64,000 bases of DNA from Variovorax paradoxus. GTDB taxonomy: Bacteria; Pseudomonadota; Gammaproteobacteria; Burkholderiales; Burkholderiaceae_C. Each line of letters starts with the position of its first letter. Position 1 is the first letter of the stretch. The notes below the pieces were generated by a model. The model was given only the letters and a program-made list of their open reading frames with translations. It searched no databases and was not told the origin of the DNA. A program made the position numbers and the translations under genes. This document shows, piece after piece, positions 58,281 through 64,000 of this stretch. The stretch is taken from positions 62,001 to 126,000 of the forward strand of contig NZ_JXQQ01000008.1 of assembly GCF_000834655.1 (NCBI RefSeq). The letters are read 5' to 3'.

Positions 58281-61247
58281 TCAGGCCGCGTCGGGCGCCG
58301 AGAGGTGCTTGCCCACGATGCCCGCGAGTTCGAACATCGTCACCTGGTCCTTGCCGAACACCGGCTTCAACTTCGCGTCGGCATTGATCGCGCGCTTGTT
58401 GGTCGCGTCCTGCAGGCCGTTGGCCTTGATGTAGTCCCACAGCTTCTTGATGACCTCGGTGCGCGCCACCGGTTCGGCGCCGATCACCGCGGCCAGCGAG
58501 TCGCTGGGCTTGAGGCCCGCGCCCGGCTTGCGCGGCGCGGCCGCCTTCTTTGCCGCCGGTGCCTTCTTGGCCGCAGGCGTCTTCTTCGCGGCGACCTTCT
58601 TGGCGGCCGCGGTCTTTGCCGCCGGCTTGCCGAAGGTCTTGCGCGGCGGGAACTTGCTGCCTCCCTCGCGCGGCGCGAATTCGAAGGTCACCTTGCCTTC
58701 GTCGGCGTTCCAGGTGAGGAAAGCCTTGAAGGCGCGGCGCGTGCGCATGCTCACGAACTTGTCGAGCAGGTCGGTCTTGCCGGTGGCCAGCAGCTTTTCC
58801 ATCTGCGCGCGTTCCACCGGCTGCTGCAGGATGATCTTGCCTGTCTTGAACGTGCAGCTGGGCGTCGGCTGCGCGTTGGTCGGCACCGACTTCTCGCAGA
58901 CGTAGTTGCTGCCGTGCTCGAACACCGGCGCGCCGCACACCGGGCACGGGCCCACGGTGTCCTGCTCGCTGAAGTCGACGATCTCGCCGGTGTCGCCGTT
59001 CTTGTCGTCGCCGAAGTCGAACTCCAGCTTCCAGTTCTTCGACTCTTCCTCGTCGTACTTGAGGATGATCTCGGCGGTGAAGGGCCAGCCCGCCTTGGAG
59101 CGGAAGCCTTCCAGCGGGCCGATGTGCTTGTCGCGCAGGAGCGCCTCGGCCTCGGCCACCTCGAAGGTGCGCCCGGCCGGCGACTTGCCGAACGAGAAGC
59201 CGCAGGCGTCCTCGCCCGTGCCGCTCTTGCCCACGCAGCCGTAGCGGCGGTAGTTTTCGCGCACGATGCCGCCGCAGTTGGGGCAAGGCGTCGAGAGCGT
59301 GGCGTAGTCGCCCGGCACGGTGTCGCGGTCGTACTCCTTGGCCTTCTTGACGATGTGCTCGGTCATCTGGGCGATCTCGCGCATGAAGGCATCGCGGCTC
59401 AAGGCGCCCTTCTCCATCTGCGCGAGCTTGTATTCCCACTCGCCGGTGAGCTCGGCCTTGGAGAGTTCTTCCACGCCCAGGCCGCGCAGCAGCGTCATGA
59501 GCTGGAAGGCCTTGGCCGTCGGAATCAGCTCGCGGCCTTCGCGCAGCATGTACTTCTCGGTGATCAGCCCTTCGATGGTGGCCGCGCGCGTGGCTGGCGT
59601 GCCCAGGCCCTTCTCCTGCATCGCTTCGCGCAGCTCGTCGTCGTCGATGGTCTTGCCCGCGCCTTCCATGGCGCCGAGCAGCGTCGCTTCGGAGTAGCGC
59701 GCGGGCGGGCGCGTCTTCAGGCCCTTGGTGTCTGCCGACTCGGTGCGGACGATCTCGCCCGGCTTCACCGGCACGAGGCGCTTGCCGTCCTTGTCGTCTT
59801 CCTTCTCGTCGTCCTGGGCTTCCTTGCCATAGATGGCGAGCCAGCCCGGCTTGACCAGCACCTTGCCGTCGGTGCGGAACGGGTACTTCTTGCCCCCCTC
59901 TTCCACCGTGCTGATGCGCGTGGTGACCTGGTATTCGGCGCTCGGGAAGAACACCGAGAGAAAGCGCCGCACGACGAAGTCGTAGAGCTTCTGCTCGGCT
60001 TCGCTCAGGCCGCTGGGGGCCTGCAGCGTCGGGATGATCGCAAAGTGATCCGACACCTTGGCGTTGTCGAAGATGCGCTTGTTGGGCTTGACGTAGTTGC
60101 CGTCGACCGCCTGCTTGGCGAACGGCGCCAGGTGCTTCATGCCGCTGTTGGCCAGCATGCCCATGGTGTCCTTGACCACCGGGAGATAGTCTTCGGGCAG
60201 CGCGCGCGAATCGGTACGCGGGTAGGTCAGCGCCTTGTGGCGTTCGTACAGGCTCTGCGCCAGCGCCAGCGTGGTCTTGGCGCTGAAGCCGAAGCGGCCG
60301 TTGGCCTCGCGCTGCAGCGAGGTCAGGTCGAACAGCATCGGCGAGGCCTGCGTGGTGGGCTTGCTCTCCTCGGTCACCGTGGCGGGCTTGCCGCGCGCGG
60401 CGTTGGCGATGGCGATGGCTTCCTGCTCGTTCCAGACGCGGTCTGCGCGCTGCTCGGCATCGGGTTCGCCGTTGGCCAGAAGCGGCGCATTCGCCTTCTT
60501 CCAGTCGGGGTTGAACCACTTGCCCGGGTACTCGCCCGCCTCGGCCGCGAAGCTGCCGTGGATTTCCCAGTAGTCGCGCGAGACGAACTTGCGGATCTGC
60601 TCCTCGCGCTCCACCACCACCGACAGCGTCGGCGTCTGCACGCGGCCCACGGTTGTGAGGAAGAAGCCGCCGTCGCGCGAATTGAATGCCGTCATGGCGC
60701 GCGTGCCGTTGATGCCCACCAGCCAGTCGGCCTCCGAGCGCGAACGCGCGGCGTCGGCCAAGCCCTGCATCTGCTTTTCGGTACGCAGCGCATCGAAGCC
60801 GTCGCGGATCGCCTGCGGCGTCATCGACTGCAGCCACAGGCGCTTGACCGGCTTGCCCAGCGGGCTCTTGCCGCCGGCGTACTGCTCGATCAGCCGGAAG
60901 ATCAGCTCGCCCTCGCGGCCCGCGTCGCAGGCGTTGATGAGTTGCGTCACGTCCTTGCGCTTGGCCTGCTTGACCACCGCGTTCAGGCGCGTCTTGGTCT
61001 TGTCGACCGGCTTCAGGTCGAAGTGCGGCGGGATCACGGGGAGGTTGGCGAAGCTCCACTTGCCCCGCTTGACGTCGAACTCCTCGGGCGCCTGGATTTC
61101 GACCAGGTGACCGACAGCGCTGGTCACGACATAGCTGTCGTTCTCGAAATGCTCGTCATGTTTGTCGAATTTGCCGGCCACCGGCGTGAGGGCACGGACG
61201 ATGTCCTGTGCCACCGACGGCTTTTCTGCGATTACCAACGTCTTCAT
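58281..61247 (-). CDS. topB: DNA topoisomerase III with histone H1-like tail and SWIB domain
   Basis: 988-residue type IA topoisomerase. It opens MKTLVIAEKPSVAQDIVRAL (Toprim), acidic residues in CDAGREGELIFR, and catalytic Tyr342 in TYPRTDS. Two Cys-rich zinc elements follow (CPNCGG; CPVCGAPVFEHGSNYVC). After about residue 867 comes a Lys/Ala/Pro-rich stretch (AAKKVAAKKTPAAKKAPAAK) of about 45 residues, like the tail of histone H1, then a SWIB domain (about 912-988; VARTEVIKKLWDYIKANGLQ, KRAINADAKLKPVFGK, FELAGIVGKHL). E. coli TopB is 653 residues, so this enzyme is about 335 longer. ATG 61247 is the normal family start. Divergent from a SET-domain gene. Confidence 0.95.
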   Translation of the reverse strand: MKTLVIAEKPSVAQDIVRALTPVAGKFDKHDEHFENDSYVVTSAVGHLVEIQAPEEFDVKRGKWSFANLPVIPPHFDLKPVDKTKTRLNAVVKQAKRKDVTQLINACDAGREGELIFRLIEQYAGGKSPLGKPVKRLWLQSMTPQAIRDGFDALRTEKQMQGLADAARSRSEADWLVGINGTRAMTAFNSRDGGFFLTTVGRVQTPTLSVVVEREEQIRKFVSRDYWEIHGSFAAEAGEYPGKWFNPDWKKANAPLLANGEPDAEQRADRVWNEQEAIAIANAARGKPATVTEESKPTTQASPMLFDLTSLQREANGRFGFSAKTTLALAQSLYERHKALTYPRTDSRALPEDYLPVVKDTMGMLANSGMKHLAPFAKQAVDGNYVKPNKRIFDNAKVSDHFAIIPTLQAPSGLSEAEQKLYDFVVRRFLSVFFPSAEYQVTTRISTVEEGGKKYPFRTDGKVLVKPGWLAIYGKEAQDDEKEDDKDGKRLVPVKPGEIVRTESADTKGLKTRPPARYSEATLLGAMEGAGKTIDDDELREAMQEKGLGTPATRAATIEGLITEKYMLREGRELIPTAKAFQLMTLLRGLGVEELSKAELTGEWEYKLAQMEKGALSRDAFMREIAQMTEHIVKKAKEYDRDTVPGDYATLSTPCPNCGGIVRENYRRYGCVGKSGTGEDACGFSFGKSPAGRTFEVAEAEALLRDKHIGPLEGFRSKAGWPFTAEIILKYDEEESKNWKLEFDFGDDKNGDTGEIVDFSEQDTVGPCPVCGAPVFEHGSNYVCEKSVPTNAQPTPSCTFKTGKIILQQPVERAQMEKLLATGKTDLLDKFVSMRTRRAFKAFLTWNADEGKVTFEFAPREGGSKFPPRKTFGKPAAKTAAAKKVAAKKTPAAKKAPAAKKAAAPRKPGAGLKPSDSLAAVIGAEPVARTEVIKKLWDYIKANGLQDATNKRAINADAKLKPVFGKDQVTMFELAGIVGKHLSAPDAA

Positions 61248-61271
61248 CAACAATTCCTAAAAAAGTTCAGG

Positions 61272-61350
61272 CCGGCGCCGAGCCGCCTCAAGGCGGCTTG
61301 CGGCCCCCTCGGGGGGCAGCGACGACACGCAGTGCGGGAGCGTGGGGGCC
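61272..61350. repeat. Comamonadaceae-type GC-rich palindromic intergenic repeat
   Basis: AGCCGCCT-CA-AGGCGGCT at 61281-61298 and GCCCCC/GGGGGC at 61303-61317 make two adjacent hairpins, followed by GCAGCGACGACACGCAGTGC and GGGAGCGTGGGGGCC. It is a different element from copies A-C but has similar parts. I have seen closely similar elements between genes of Acidovorax and Variovorax. Position: between the topB start and the SET gene. Confidence 0.75.
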
Positions 61351-61353
61351 ACA

Positions 61354-61359
61354 TACAAT
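61354..61359 (+). promoter_or_regulatory. possible -10 box for the SET-birA unit
   Basis: TACAAT at 61354-61359 just after the repeat and just before the Z-DNA-prone tract. No good -35 at the standard distance. If used, the transcript would begin inside the alternating tract. Confidence 0.35.
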
Positions 61360-61370
61360 CTGCGGCTTCC

Positions 61371-61407
61371 CGCGTGTGCGCACGCGCACACGCGCATGTG
61401 TGCATAT
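61371..61407. other. 37-base alternating purine-pyrimidine (Z-DNA-prone) tract
   Basis: From 61371 to 61407 every base alternates pyrimidine and purine (CG, TG, CA and TA steps) without one break. CG/CA repeats of this length are strong candidates for left-handed DNA under negative supercoiling. The tract sits 21 bases before the SET gene start and about 124 bases from the topB start. Confidence 0.85.
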
Positions 61408-61428
61408 TCAAACTAACAGACTTCGGCG

Positions 61429-62058
61429 ATGCCTTCCAAATCCCCACAATTCGCCGGCCGCCGCATCCAGATGCGGCGCTCGGATGTCCATGGCAACGGC
61501 GTGTTCGCCGTACAGGACCTGGCCGAAGGCGAAACGCTGATCGAATACAAGGGCGAGGTCATCAACTGGAAAGAGGCGCTGCGCCGCCATCCGCACGACC
61601 CGGCCCAGCCGAACCACACCTTCTATTTCCACATCGACGATGGCCGCGTGATCGACGGCAACGTCAAGGGCAACGACGCCCGCTGGATCAACCACTCGTG
61701 CGAGCCGAACTGCGAGGCCGACGAAGTCGATGGGCGCGTTTATATCAAGGCACTGCGCAACATCGCTGCAGGAGAAGAGCTCAATTACGACTACGGCCTG
61801 ATCATCGACGAGCCCTATACCGAAAAGCTCCTGTCCGAATTTCCTTGCTGGTGCGGTTCCGAGCAGTGCCGCGGCACGCTCTTGACGCCCAAGGATGAGG
61901 ACGAAGAAAAGAAAAAGAAGAAGAAAGCCAGGAAGAAGGCTGAAAAGAAAAAGGCCGAGAAGAAAGAAGCCAAGAAGGCCGACAAGAAAGCCGAAAAGAA
62001 GGCTGAGAAAAAAGACGAGAAAAAGAAGTCCAAGAAGGACAAGTCCGGCAAGGATTGA
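61429..62058 (+). CDS. SET-domain protein-lysine N-methyltransferase with Lys-rich tail
   Basis: 209-residue SET protein. N-terminal VHGNGVFAVQDLAEGETLIEYKGE, the AdoMet-binding and active-site core RWINHSCEPN (88-94 for NHSCEPN), catalytic-Tyr region GEELNYDYG (115-123) and a post-SET zinc element CWC...C (Cys140, 142, 147). From about 160 to the end there are roughly 50 residues of almost only Lys, Ala, Glu and Asp (KKKKKKARKKAEKKKAEKK), probably helical. SET enzymes methylate lysines on proteins; in Chlamydia one methylates a histone-like protein. The target here is unknown. Two bases separate it from birA. Confidence 0.93.
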   Translation: MPSKSPQFAGRRIQMRRSDVHGNGVFAVQDLAEGETLIEYKGEVINWKEALRRHPHDPAQPNHTFYFHIDDGRVIDGNVKGNDARWINHSCEPNCEADEVDGRVYIKALRNIAAGEELNYDYGLIIDEPYTEKLLSEFPCWCGSEQCRGTLLTPKDEDEEKKKKKKARKKAEKKKAEKKEAKKADKKAEKKAEKKDEKKKSKKDKSGKD

Positions 62059-62060
62059 GC

Positions 62061-62873
62061 ATGGGCAACACCACGGCCGCCTGGCACGAAGACCGGATCG
62101 CCGCTGCGGTGGCGCCGCTGCTGCCCGGTTTCGCGGTCGAGGCGGTGGCCGAGATCGATTCCACCAACACCGAACTCATGCGCCGCGCGCGCGCCGGCCG
62201 CATCGAGCCGGTGCTGCTGGTGGCCGAGCACCAGACCGCGGGCCGCGGCCGCCTTGGCCGCGCGTGGCAGAGCGCGCAACCAGGGCAGGAGCCGACGTCG
62301 CTGCTGTTCTCGCTCGGCCTGCCGCTCGCGCCGGCCGACTGGTCGGGCCTGTCGCTCGCGGTCGGTGTCACCGTGGCCGAGAGCCTCGACCCATCGGGCG
62401 TGCTCAAGATCGGCCTCAAGTGGCCCAACGACATCTGGGTGAACGACCGCAAGCTGGTCGGCATCCTCATCGAGACCGCCTTGCCGCACGCGGGCGGACC
62501 CGGTGCGCAGCGCTACGTGGTGATCGGCATCGGCATCAACATCGGCGCGCGCGAAGCCGACGGCATGCGCACACCGCCGGCCTGGCTGAATCAGTGGCGC
62601 CCCGATGCGACCGCGCCCGAGGTGCTGCGCGAGCTGGCCGAGCCGCTGGTGCGCAGCGTGCTCGCCTTCGAGGCGCAAGGCTTCGCGCAATTTGCCGAAC
62701 GCTTTGCCGCGCGCGACGTGCTGCGCGGCCGCGAGGTGGTGCTCAGCGACGGCACCGCGGGACTCTGCGAAGGCGTGGCCTGGAGCGGCGAACTGCAGGT
62801 GCGCACGGCCGAGGGCCTGCAGATCATTACGAGCGACGAAGTGAGCGTGCGCCCTCGCGGCATGGCTTTCTGA
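62061..62873 (+). CDS. birA: biotin--[acetyl-CoA-carboxylase] ligase
   Basis: 270-residue class I biotin protein ligase, lacking the N-terminal DNA-binding domain of E. coli BirA. STNTELMRRA, EHQTAGRGRLGRAWQS (biotinyl-AMP loop) and KWPNDIWV (biotin and ATP site) are typical. It attaches biotin to a lysine of carboxyl carrier proteins. The start is two bases after the SET gene stop, so both lysine-modifying enzymes are probably cotranscribed. Confidence 0.95.
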   Translation: MGNTTAAWHEDRIAAAVAPLLPGFAVEAVAEIDSTNTELMRRARAGRIEPVLLVAEHQTAGRGRLGRAWQSAQPGQEPTSLLFSLGLPLAPADWSGLSLAVGVTVAESLDPSGVLKIGLKWPNDIWVNDRKLVGILIETALPHAGGPGAQRYVVIGIGINIGAREADGMRTPPAWLNQWRPDATAPEVLRELAEPLVRSVLAFEAQGFAQFAERFAARDVLRGREVVLSDGTAGLCEGVAWSGELQVRTAEGLQIITSDEVSVRPRGMAF

Positions 62874-63098: not shown

Positions 63099-64000
63099 TC
63101 ACGAGAGCGCCCCGCTCTCGAAGCGCACCGTGAAGCGCGCCCCCGGCGGATGCTTGCCGGGGTGTGCATCCTCCAGCTTCACCTGCGCGTGGTGCTGGTT
63201 CGCGATCTCCCGCACGATCGGCAGGCCCAGCCCCGAGCCGTCGGCGTCGTTGCCGAGCACGCGGTAGAAGGGCTCGAACACCAGTTCGCGATCGGACTCG
63301 GCGATGCCCGGGCCGTTGTCTTCCACCTGCAGCAGCAGCACATGGCCGAAGGGGTCGGCCAGCACGCGCGCGGTGATCACGCCGGGGTGATCGGGCGTGG
63401 AGGGCGTGTAGTTGAGCGCGTTGTCCACGAGGTTGCGCACCAGCTCCTTCAGCAGCGTCGGATTGCCGTCGAACATCACGCCGGGCGCGCCGGCCTCCGC
63501 GCCGTCGTAGCCCAGGTCGATGCGCTTCTCGATCGCACGCGGCACCGCTTCGCGCACCACCTCGATGGTGAGACGCGCGAGGTCGCAGGGCTGGCGGTGC
63601 GAGTTGGCGCTGTTGCCTTCGGCGCGCGCGAGCGACAGCAGCTGGTTCACCGTGTGCGTGGCGCGCACGCTGGCGCGGCCGATCTGCTTGAGCGACTGCT
63701 TCAGTTCGTCGGCGTTGGCGCCCTCGCGCTGCGCGAGGTCGGCCTGCATGCGCAGCCCCGCGAGCGGCGTCTTCAGCTGGTGGGCCGCGTCGGCGAGAAA
63801 GCGCTTTTGCGTGTCGATGGAGTCGTTGAGCTTGTTCAGCAGTTCGTTGACCGACGACACCAGCGGCACCACTTCGAGCGGCACCGACGACTCGTCGAGC
63901 GGGCTCAGGTCGCCGGGGCGTCGTTCGCGGATGCGCGCCTCCACCACCGACAGCGGCTTGATGCCGCGCACCAGCGCGAGCCAGATCAGGAGCACCGCGA
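63099..64000 (-). CDS. sensor histidine kinase, TctE-like (5' end outside window)
   Basis: About 300 C-terminal residues of a membrane sensor kinase; the frame stays open to the window end. After a hydrophobic segment and HAMP-like linker (RGIKPLSVVEARIRERRPGDLSPLD), the H box is FLADAAHQLKTPLAGLR (phospho-His), then N box LVRNLVDNALNYTP, G1 VEDNGPGI and G2 GSGLGLPIV. Its closest visible features match TctE, which with TctD controls tricarboxylate uptake. That would fit the three Bug proteins of this window, but the regulator partner is not seen. Confidence 0.88.
   Translation of the reverse strand, partial: AVLLIWLALVRGIKPLSVVEARIRERRPGDLSPLDESSVPLEVVPLVSSVNELLNKLNDSIDTQKRFLADAAHQLKTPLAGLRMQADLAQREGANADELKQSLKQIGRASVRATHTVNQLLSLARAEGNSANSHRQPCDLARLTIEVVREAVPRAIEKRIDLGYDGAEAGAPGVMFDGNPTLLKELVRNLVDNALNYTPSTPDHPGVITARVLADPFGHVLLLQVEDNGPGIAESDRELVFEPFYRVLGNDADGSGLGLPIVREIANQHHAQVKLEDAHPGKHPPGARFTVRFESGALS

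Follow-up and report, generated by a model that had tools for sequence, protein, structure and literature searches.

In the 64,000-nt stretch of the Variovorax paradoxus genome analyzed here (the window; contig NZ_JXQQ01000008.1), a gene for a SET-domain protein lies between birA, a biotin ligase gene, and the divergent topB, which encodes a DNA topoisomerase III ending in an Ala/Lys-rich (AK-rich) linker and a SWIB domain. Within the family of this genome (f1; g labels denote genera, and G and L labels genomes and loci), absence of SET correlated with absence of the motif AKK from TopB tails. At least one AKK was present in 122 of 132 tails from genomes with SET (SET+) and in 1 of 17 from genomes lacking it (SET−). 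The SET protein may be an endogenous lysine methyltransferase for AKK sites in the AK-rich tails of TopB and of a separate SWIB protein, a reading whose chances we place slightly below even.

A SET match was found in 380 of 398 f1 genomes and was missing from 18; one of the 380 (G439) matched only at 6e-4. Because their topB sits close to or at the end of a contig, G439 and G402 were set aside; each keeps two AKK. The 17 SET− genomes yielded no SET remnant at E ≤ 1e-3, and in them topB faces birA across 149–341 bp. Six state changes were inferred on the TopB-core tree, including two in g154 and one in g26, where other members are SET+; seven g159 and three g196 genomes were counted as one loss. 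On the SET+ side, 142 loci entered the tail analysis and 10 were dropped (topB or its C-terminus missing), leaving 132, of which 129 carry SET in the fetched topB locus and 3 are SET+ by genome search alone.

When SET+ was restricted to loci with SET at the same place, AKK was present in 119 of 129 tails. Among SWIB-fused TopBs, the motif was found in 95 of 102 SET+ and in 0 of 6 SET− tails, and among unfused TopBs in 27 of 30 and 1 of 11, respectively. Phylogenetic generalized least squares (PGLS; 149 genomes) associated SET loss with a lower TopB AKK count (b = −1.91, P = 9.5e-5), also with TopB-core Lys and tail length included (b = −1.57, P = 0.0014) or, over 48 genomes, with genome size alongside core Lys (b = −1.62, P = 0.016). 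The Lys count of the TopB tail gave P = 0.12, and 0.042 with covariates. In the g26 and g154 losses (G666, G701, and G689), the AKK count of the TopB tail was 0 each time; among the nearest SET+ relatives it was 1 for G666, a mean of 2.0 in five for G701, and 3 in all four for G689.

The AKK measure was fixed on TopB tails; among separate SWIB tails, only that of the window's own genome had been seen before. The median AKK count in separate SWIB tails was 5 in 33 SET+ and 1 in 17 SET− genomes (P = 1.2e-4). PGLS over 48 genomes gave b = −4.75 (P = 0.0047), with P = 0.001 for KK beyond expectation. The KK deficit was confined to g159 and g196 (1 observed, 7.4 expected); g196 tails keep 9–12 lysines, yet have no KK after the start motif. 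In G689, an inferred recent loss, the SWIB-tail repeat is irregular, whereas three sisters have near-perfect AAPAKK repeats.

The first-pass annotation of the window had made its proposal depend on a conserved gene order, and the order was clearly conserved, beyond what chance would give. In the best 80 of 391 SET loci from a contig scan, 78 have topB upstream of SET and oppositely oriented, and 79 have birA downstream, the exceptions being at contig ends; the nearest named relatives by SET were Variovorax, with up to 97% identity in SET. Both neighbors were present in 30 of 30 further loci (the own genome and 29 of 36 same-genus genomes). Among 20 more divergent family members, hand-picked for lower SET score, topB adjoined SET in 19 and birA in all 20, and 17 of the 19 TopBs lacked SWIB and ended in a mostly AK-rich tail. 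Because most of these TopBs are unfused, and the SET C-terminal Lys tail is only 7–9 residues in many relatives, the gene order is older than both the SWIB fusion and the long SET tail. Judged from these comparisons, the order topB← →SET→birA is old.

SET is less frequent in the order as a whole (73 of 300 sampled genomes, 59 of them below E = 1e-40). Contexts were read for 40 of these hits, with gyrB and topB as the topoisomerase genes sought. In eight of the 40, gyrB or topB is no more than one gene away from SET; in the others, neither was found so near. Of these eight, two f6 genomes have SET flanked by gyrB and topB, three small f32 genomes have it behind gyrB, two f20 genomes have a single gene separating it from topB, and one f1 genome has it adjoining topB. 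The SET tree places f6 and f20 outside a clade (98/90) of f1, f32, f10, and three of four f8 rows. Proximity to topoisomerase genes may reflect old synteny or repeated recruitment. The two f6 loci (L180, L181) read dnaA-dnaN-gyrB-SET-topB-dprA, near the presumed origin, and the three f32 loci (L151, L152, L153; 1.7–2.1 Mb, no SWIB match) read dnaN-gyrB-SET, followed by DUF3717 (L151) or its relatives.

SWIB was present in 200 of 200 genomes of the studied family. In the 300-genome sample, TopB-SWIB frames were seen only in f1 (9 of its 10 genomes); outside f1, SWIB is a small separate protein. Families with strong SET matches had SWIB more often (13 of 14, the exception being f32) than those without (8 of ~36; Fisher, P = 6.4e-6). 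This test took 50 families (f1–f50), one of which may be outside the sample; with 49, P = 8.6e-6. The separate SWIB protein of the own genome (L183:3621-4089, G000:C127) consists of an AK-rich tail with AAPAKK-type repeats followed by SWIB. Because this layout matches the end of TopB, a protein of this kind is the probable source of that end. Two g154 loci (L202, L203) encode TopB-SWIB fusions with a SWIB that looks unlike that of the other fusions seen, so that a separate fusion or an early branch is possible.

The window TopB matched PRK14724, the NCBIfam equivalog "DNA topoisomerase III", with 1993 bits (cut-off 1088) over model positions 1–988 of 988, and its domains run Toprim, Topoisom_bac, two Toprim_Crpt stretches, then SWIB. 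It scored over the cut-offs of TopB models and below those of TopA models, and identity of the SWIB-fused topoisomerase as TopA was rejected on that ground. The SET protein matched Pfam SET with 83.8 bits (cut-off 22.4, E = 1.4e-23). Among the solved-sequence matches listed (60 of 131), all were named eukaryotic-type histone-lysine methyltransferases, the best being human MLL1/KMT2A (E = 3.7e-27), which has the same SET and post-SET motifs. WINHxC, GEELNYDYG, and the post-SET CWC...CRG were invariant in 17 of 17 aligned family orthologues, and the alignment indicates that the catalytic motifs are intact. The post-SET motif of the window protein is CWCGSEQCRG. An AlphaFold model of the SET core, built from 17 close sequences, had a mean pLDDT of 42.6 and was set aside. 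To our knowledge, neither the MLL1 complex partners nor histone H3 are to be expected in this bacterium. A second, divergent SET gene is present in the own genome (G000:C60:317720-318175; L184; 38–41% identical), and comparably similar matches turn up in many genomes of the same genus.

We propose that the SET protein would methylate paired-lysine (AKK) sites in presumably disordered AK-rich tails of nucleoid proteins. The substrates would include the linker of TopB, the product of the divergent gene, and the AK-rich SWIB protein made from a gene of its own; AAPAKKAAPAKK is an example of a candidate peptide substrate. Adjacent lysines as a target have a precedent in chlamydial NUE, described below. 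Because Tyr120 occupies what we take to be the "F/Y switch" position of MLL1, the predicted product is mono- (at most di-) methyl-lysine. With lysine charge retained, methylation would tune how tightly the tails hold DNA and thereby the placement of topoisomerase III and the SWIB protein on the chromosome. The first-pass annotation had suggested the H1-like TopB tail, other AK-rich histone-like proteins, or the SET protein itself as SET targets. The correlation with SET absence agrees with that idea for TopB and, less firmly, for the separate SWIB protein; methylation itself, its exact sites, and its effect on DNA binding are inferred.

Several observations weigh against this assignment. All support for tail methylation is correlation, and AKK was chosen among several measures after the TopB tails had been inspected. 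The TopB KK count gave P = 0.027 by PGLS and was no longer significant once covariates entered (P = 0.13), and KK pairing beyond Lys content was not significant after phylogeny (P = 0.22). AKK was missing from 10 of the 132 SET+ TopB tails, and one AKK is retained in the only g173 loss, whose sister group is mostly SET−. The largest loss clade (g159 and g196, 10 genomes) has 0 AKK, as does its SET+ sister (L195); g161 has 0, compared with 3 and 0 in two SET+ sisters. For separate SWIB tails, the AKK effect was not significant with core Lys and genome size included (b = −2.59, P = 0.17; pairing, P = 0.13); the tails of g161, g154, and g26 showed no KK deficit (10 observed, 5.9 expected), and two SET+ genomes (G483, G401) have very short tails. 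In the order, eight families have SWIB and no strong SET, and eight f32 genomes with SET gave no SWIB match. The TopB core was itself poorer in Lys in SET− than in SET+ genomes (5.77% vs. 7.66%; P = 8e-9; P = 0.0025 after phylogeny).

The last difference also bears on the alternative that survives best, a somewhat less probable but serious one: an endogenous SET enzyme with an unrelated substrate (e.g., a ribosomal or translation protein), an inherited topB neighborhood, and AKK changes that reflect Lys drift in streamlined genomes. All 17 SET− genomes are small (2.2–3.1 Mb), they have fewer KK in the TopB core too, most SET contexts read outside f1 had no adjacent topB, and AKK effects weaken once covariates are added. 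Against this reading, among genomes ≤3.1 Mb, the median AKK count was still higher in 12 SET+ than in 17 SET− genomes, both for TopB (1.5 vs. 0, P = 1.3e-4) and for the SWIB tail (5 vs. 0, P = 3e-4), these values being uncorrected for phylogeny. The locus GC medians were 0.677 and 0.677 (P = 0.07). In sampled stretches (≤20 kb; 17 SET−, 23 SET+), pooled KK observed/expected ratios were similar (1.06 for SET− and 1.09 for SET+), as was GC, with median Lys of 2.8% and 3.5% (P = 0.18). Since core Lys differs while sampled KK pairing and GC are alike, general composition explains part, though not clearly all, of the AKK signal.

The Lys-rich SET tail to which the first-pass annotation had drawn attention is present in the window protein (the 60 residues behind the post-SET motif are 48% Lys) and is variable, often absent, in relatives. 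It would be the main substrate, with the action on TopB incidental, if the enzyme automethylated its tail, as chlamydial NUE does at a KK pair outside its SET domain (K209/K210, adjacent lysines in a peptide of its own; PMC2904774). Many relatives keep the gene with the 7–9-residue tail, so that the tail cannot be the conserved target that had been suggested. Automethylation is improbable as the main role, and the long tail is, as far as these relatives indicate, dispensable for whatever function is conserved.

A secreted effector acting on host histones, like LegAS4/RomA or BtSET, is very unlikely. The SET domain is shared, and the Burkholderia BtSET is described in reviews as a secreted H3K4 methyltransferase (PMC7819608, PMC3980110). 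The window protein matched the model of the Dot/Icm effector AnkI/LegAS4 (NF043024) with 42.6 bits, far under the cut-off of 550, and nowhere outside the SET region. That score and the family-wide distribution argue against such a role: the gene stands in a conserved row with birA throughout the family, including Variovorax, Ramlibacter, and Limnohabitans, no search having been aimed at secretion systems. These three genera are soil and freshwater bacteria. The likelihood is lower still for a small-molecule enzyme such as BurB, the SET-domain methionine S-methyltransferase of Burkholderia thailandensis (PMC12542666). Judged without aligning BurB itself, the solved matches listed (60 of 131) are all histone-lysine methyltransferases, BurB not among them, and the family orthologues retain the post-SET cysteines and the NHxC/YDY motifs.

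A close known parallel to the proposed endogenous methyltransferase is in Chlamydiae, where one genome likewise encodes a SET protein (NUE/cpnSET), a SWIB protein of small size, and a type IA topoisomerase fused to SWIB (TopA-SWIB), as does that of the window. Here the fusion is instead to topoisomerase III and carries an AK-rich linker, SET and topB are neighbors, and SET absence tracks AKK absence. The chlamydial precedent for methylation of a histone-like protein is weaker than the first pass had it: methylation of Hc1 by the C. pneumoniae enzyme was reported by one group, whereas another found that NUE did not methylate Hc1 (PMC2904774, PMC6426960). A prokaryotic SET protein acting in vitro on a chromatin protein of its own cell is Go1-SET of Methanosarcina mazei, which is archaeal and has another substrate, MC1-alpha; the review passages on it mention no topoisomerase link (PMC3980110). 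Actinobacterial TopA, likewise of type IA, has a C-terminal domain of lysine repeats that is credited with high processivity; the opening of the abstract mentions no SET or SWIB partner (PMC7398561).

Bacterial SET enzymes appear in reviews mainly as effectors against host histones (PMC7819608, PMC3980110). A 2025 paper describes SWIB as rare in prokaryotes except Chlamydia and SWIB-TopA as unknown beyond Chlamydia (PMC12445093); the present TopB proteins show that fusions of SWIB to a topoisomerase also occur outside Chlamydia. None of the titles and abstracts found by literature search concerned a topB-SET pair in Burkholderiales; the search did not include the 2011 review by Aravind to which the Waddlia paper refers. 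Tentatively, and with rather less than even probability, Comamonadaceae and relatives would have an endogenous histone-type system in which SET acts on AKK repeats of TopB-SWIB and AK-SWIB, selection for AKK disappears with SET, and a similar set arose separately in Chlamydiae around TopA. The SET/AKK pattern may point to a bacterial counterpart of chromatin methylation. If family-wide SET beside topB and the lack of target-like motifs where it has been lost do have this meaning, the native purpose of a SET enzyme becomes testable in a free-living bacterium, namely whether bacterial cells use lysine methylation to mark chromatin proteins of their own.

The three genes and their domains, as annotated in the first pass, were confirmed by gene positions and domain matches.

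Features of the topB–SET–birA region (positions in the window)
Feature	Position	Strand	Remarks
topB, DNA topoisomerase III with AK-rich linker and C-terminal SWIB	58281-61253	-	990 aa, PRK14724
TopB linker (residues 861-919), AK-rich and H1-like, with four AKK motifs; proposed as substrate	58497..58673	-	
SWIB/MDM2 domain of TopB, residues 914-984	58302..58514	-	PF02201 E=1.3e-25
topB/SET divergent intergenic region, 175 bp	61254..61428	.	divergent layout conserved in relatives
SET-domain protein, predicted protein-lysine methyltransferase, 209 aa	61429-62058	+	Pfam SET 22-123, post-SET Cys cluster ~140-149
Lys-rich C-terminal tail of SET protein, residues 150-209, variable among relatives	61876..62055	+	48% Lys
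birA, biotin--[acetyl-CoA-carboxylase] ligase, ligase domain only	62055-62873	+	TIGR00121
Sensor (histidine) kinase, converging with birA and truncated where the window ends	63099-63998	-	best model QseC/PmrB-like, below cut-offs

The start codon of topB is TTG, with an ATG two codons further in. If birA begins at its TTG, it shares 4 nt with the end of SET; the alternative ATG at 62061 would leave a gap of 2 nt.

BirA had been counted as part of the chromatin unit, and this was not supported. The protein looks like an ordinary ligase: TIGR00121 matched its ligase part with 139.2 bits (cut-off 83.1), and domain-model searches gave no match for an N-terminal helix-turn-helix repressor domain. 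Because birA adjoins topB in 17 of 17 SET− loci and was not detected near SET outside f1 in the contexts read (at most ~6 kb each way), it is probably a passenger of the operon. The reading of BirA as a chromatin enzyme was rejected.

Other AK-rich proteins were also considered. An HC2-like profile matched 144 of 300 genomes of the order (84 over the cut-off); it also catches other AK-rich tracts and was set aside as a test. No sign of an AK extension on HU/IHF was seen in 38 genomes, judged from coordinates and frame lengths alone. In the own genome, one HC2-like protein (histone H1-like; G000:C48:30547-31062) scores above the Pfam threshold and is a third possible AK-rich substrate. In f32, close SET relatives (L143-L147; 62–68% identity) converge on a sensor kinase gene, preceded in L143 by a response regulator; the kinase beyond birA in the window is related to it.

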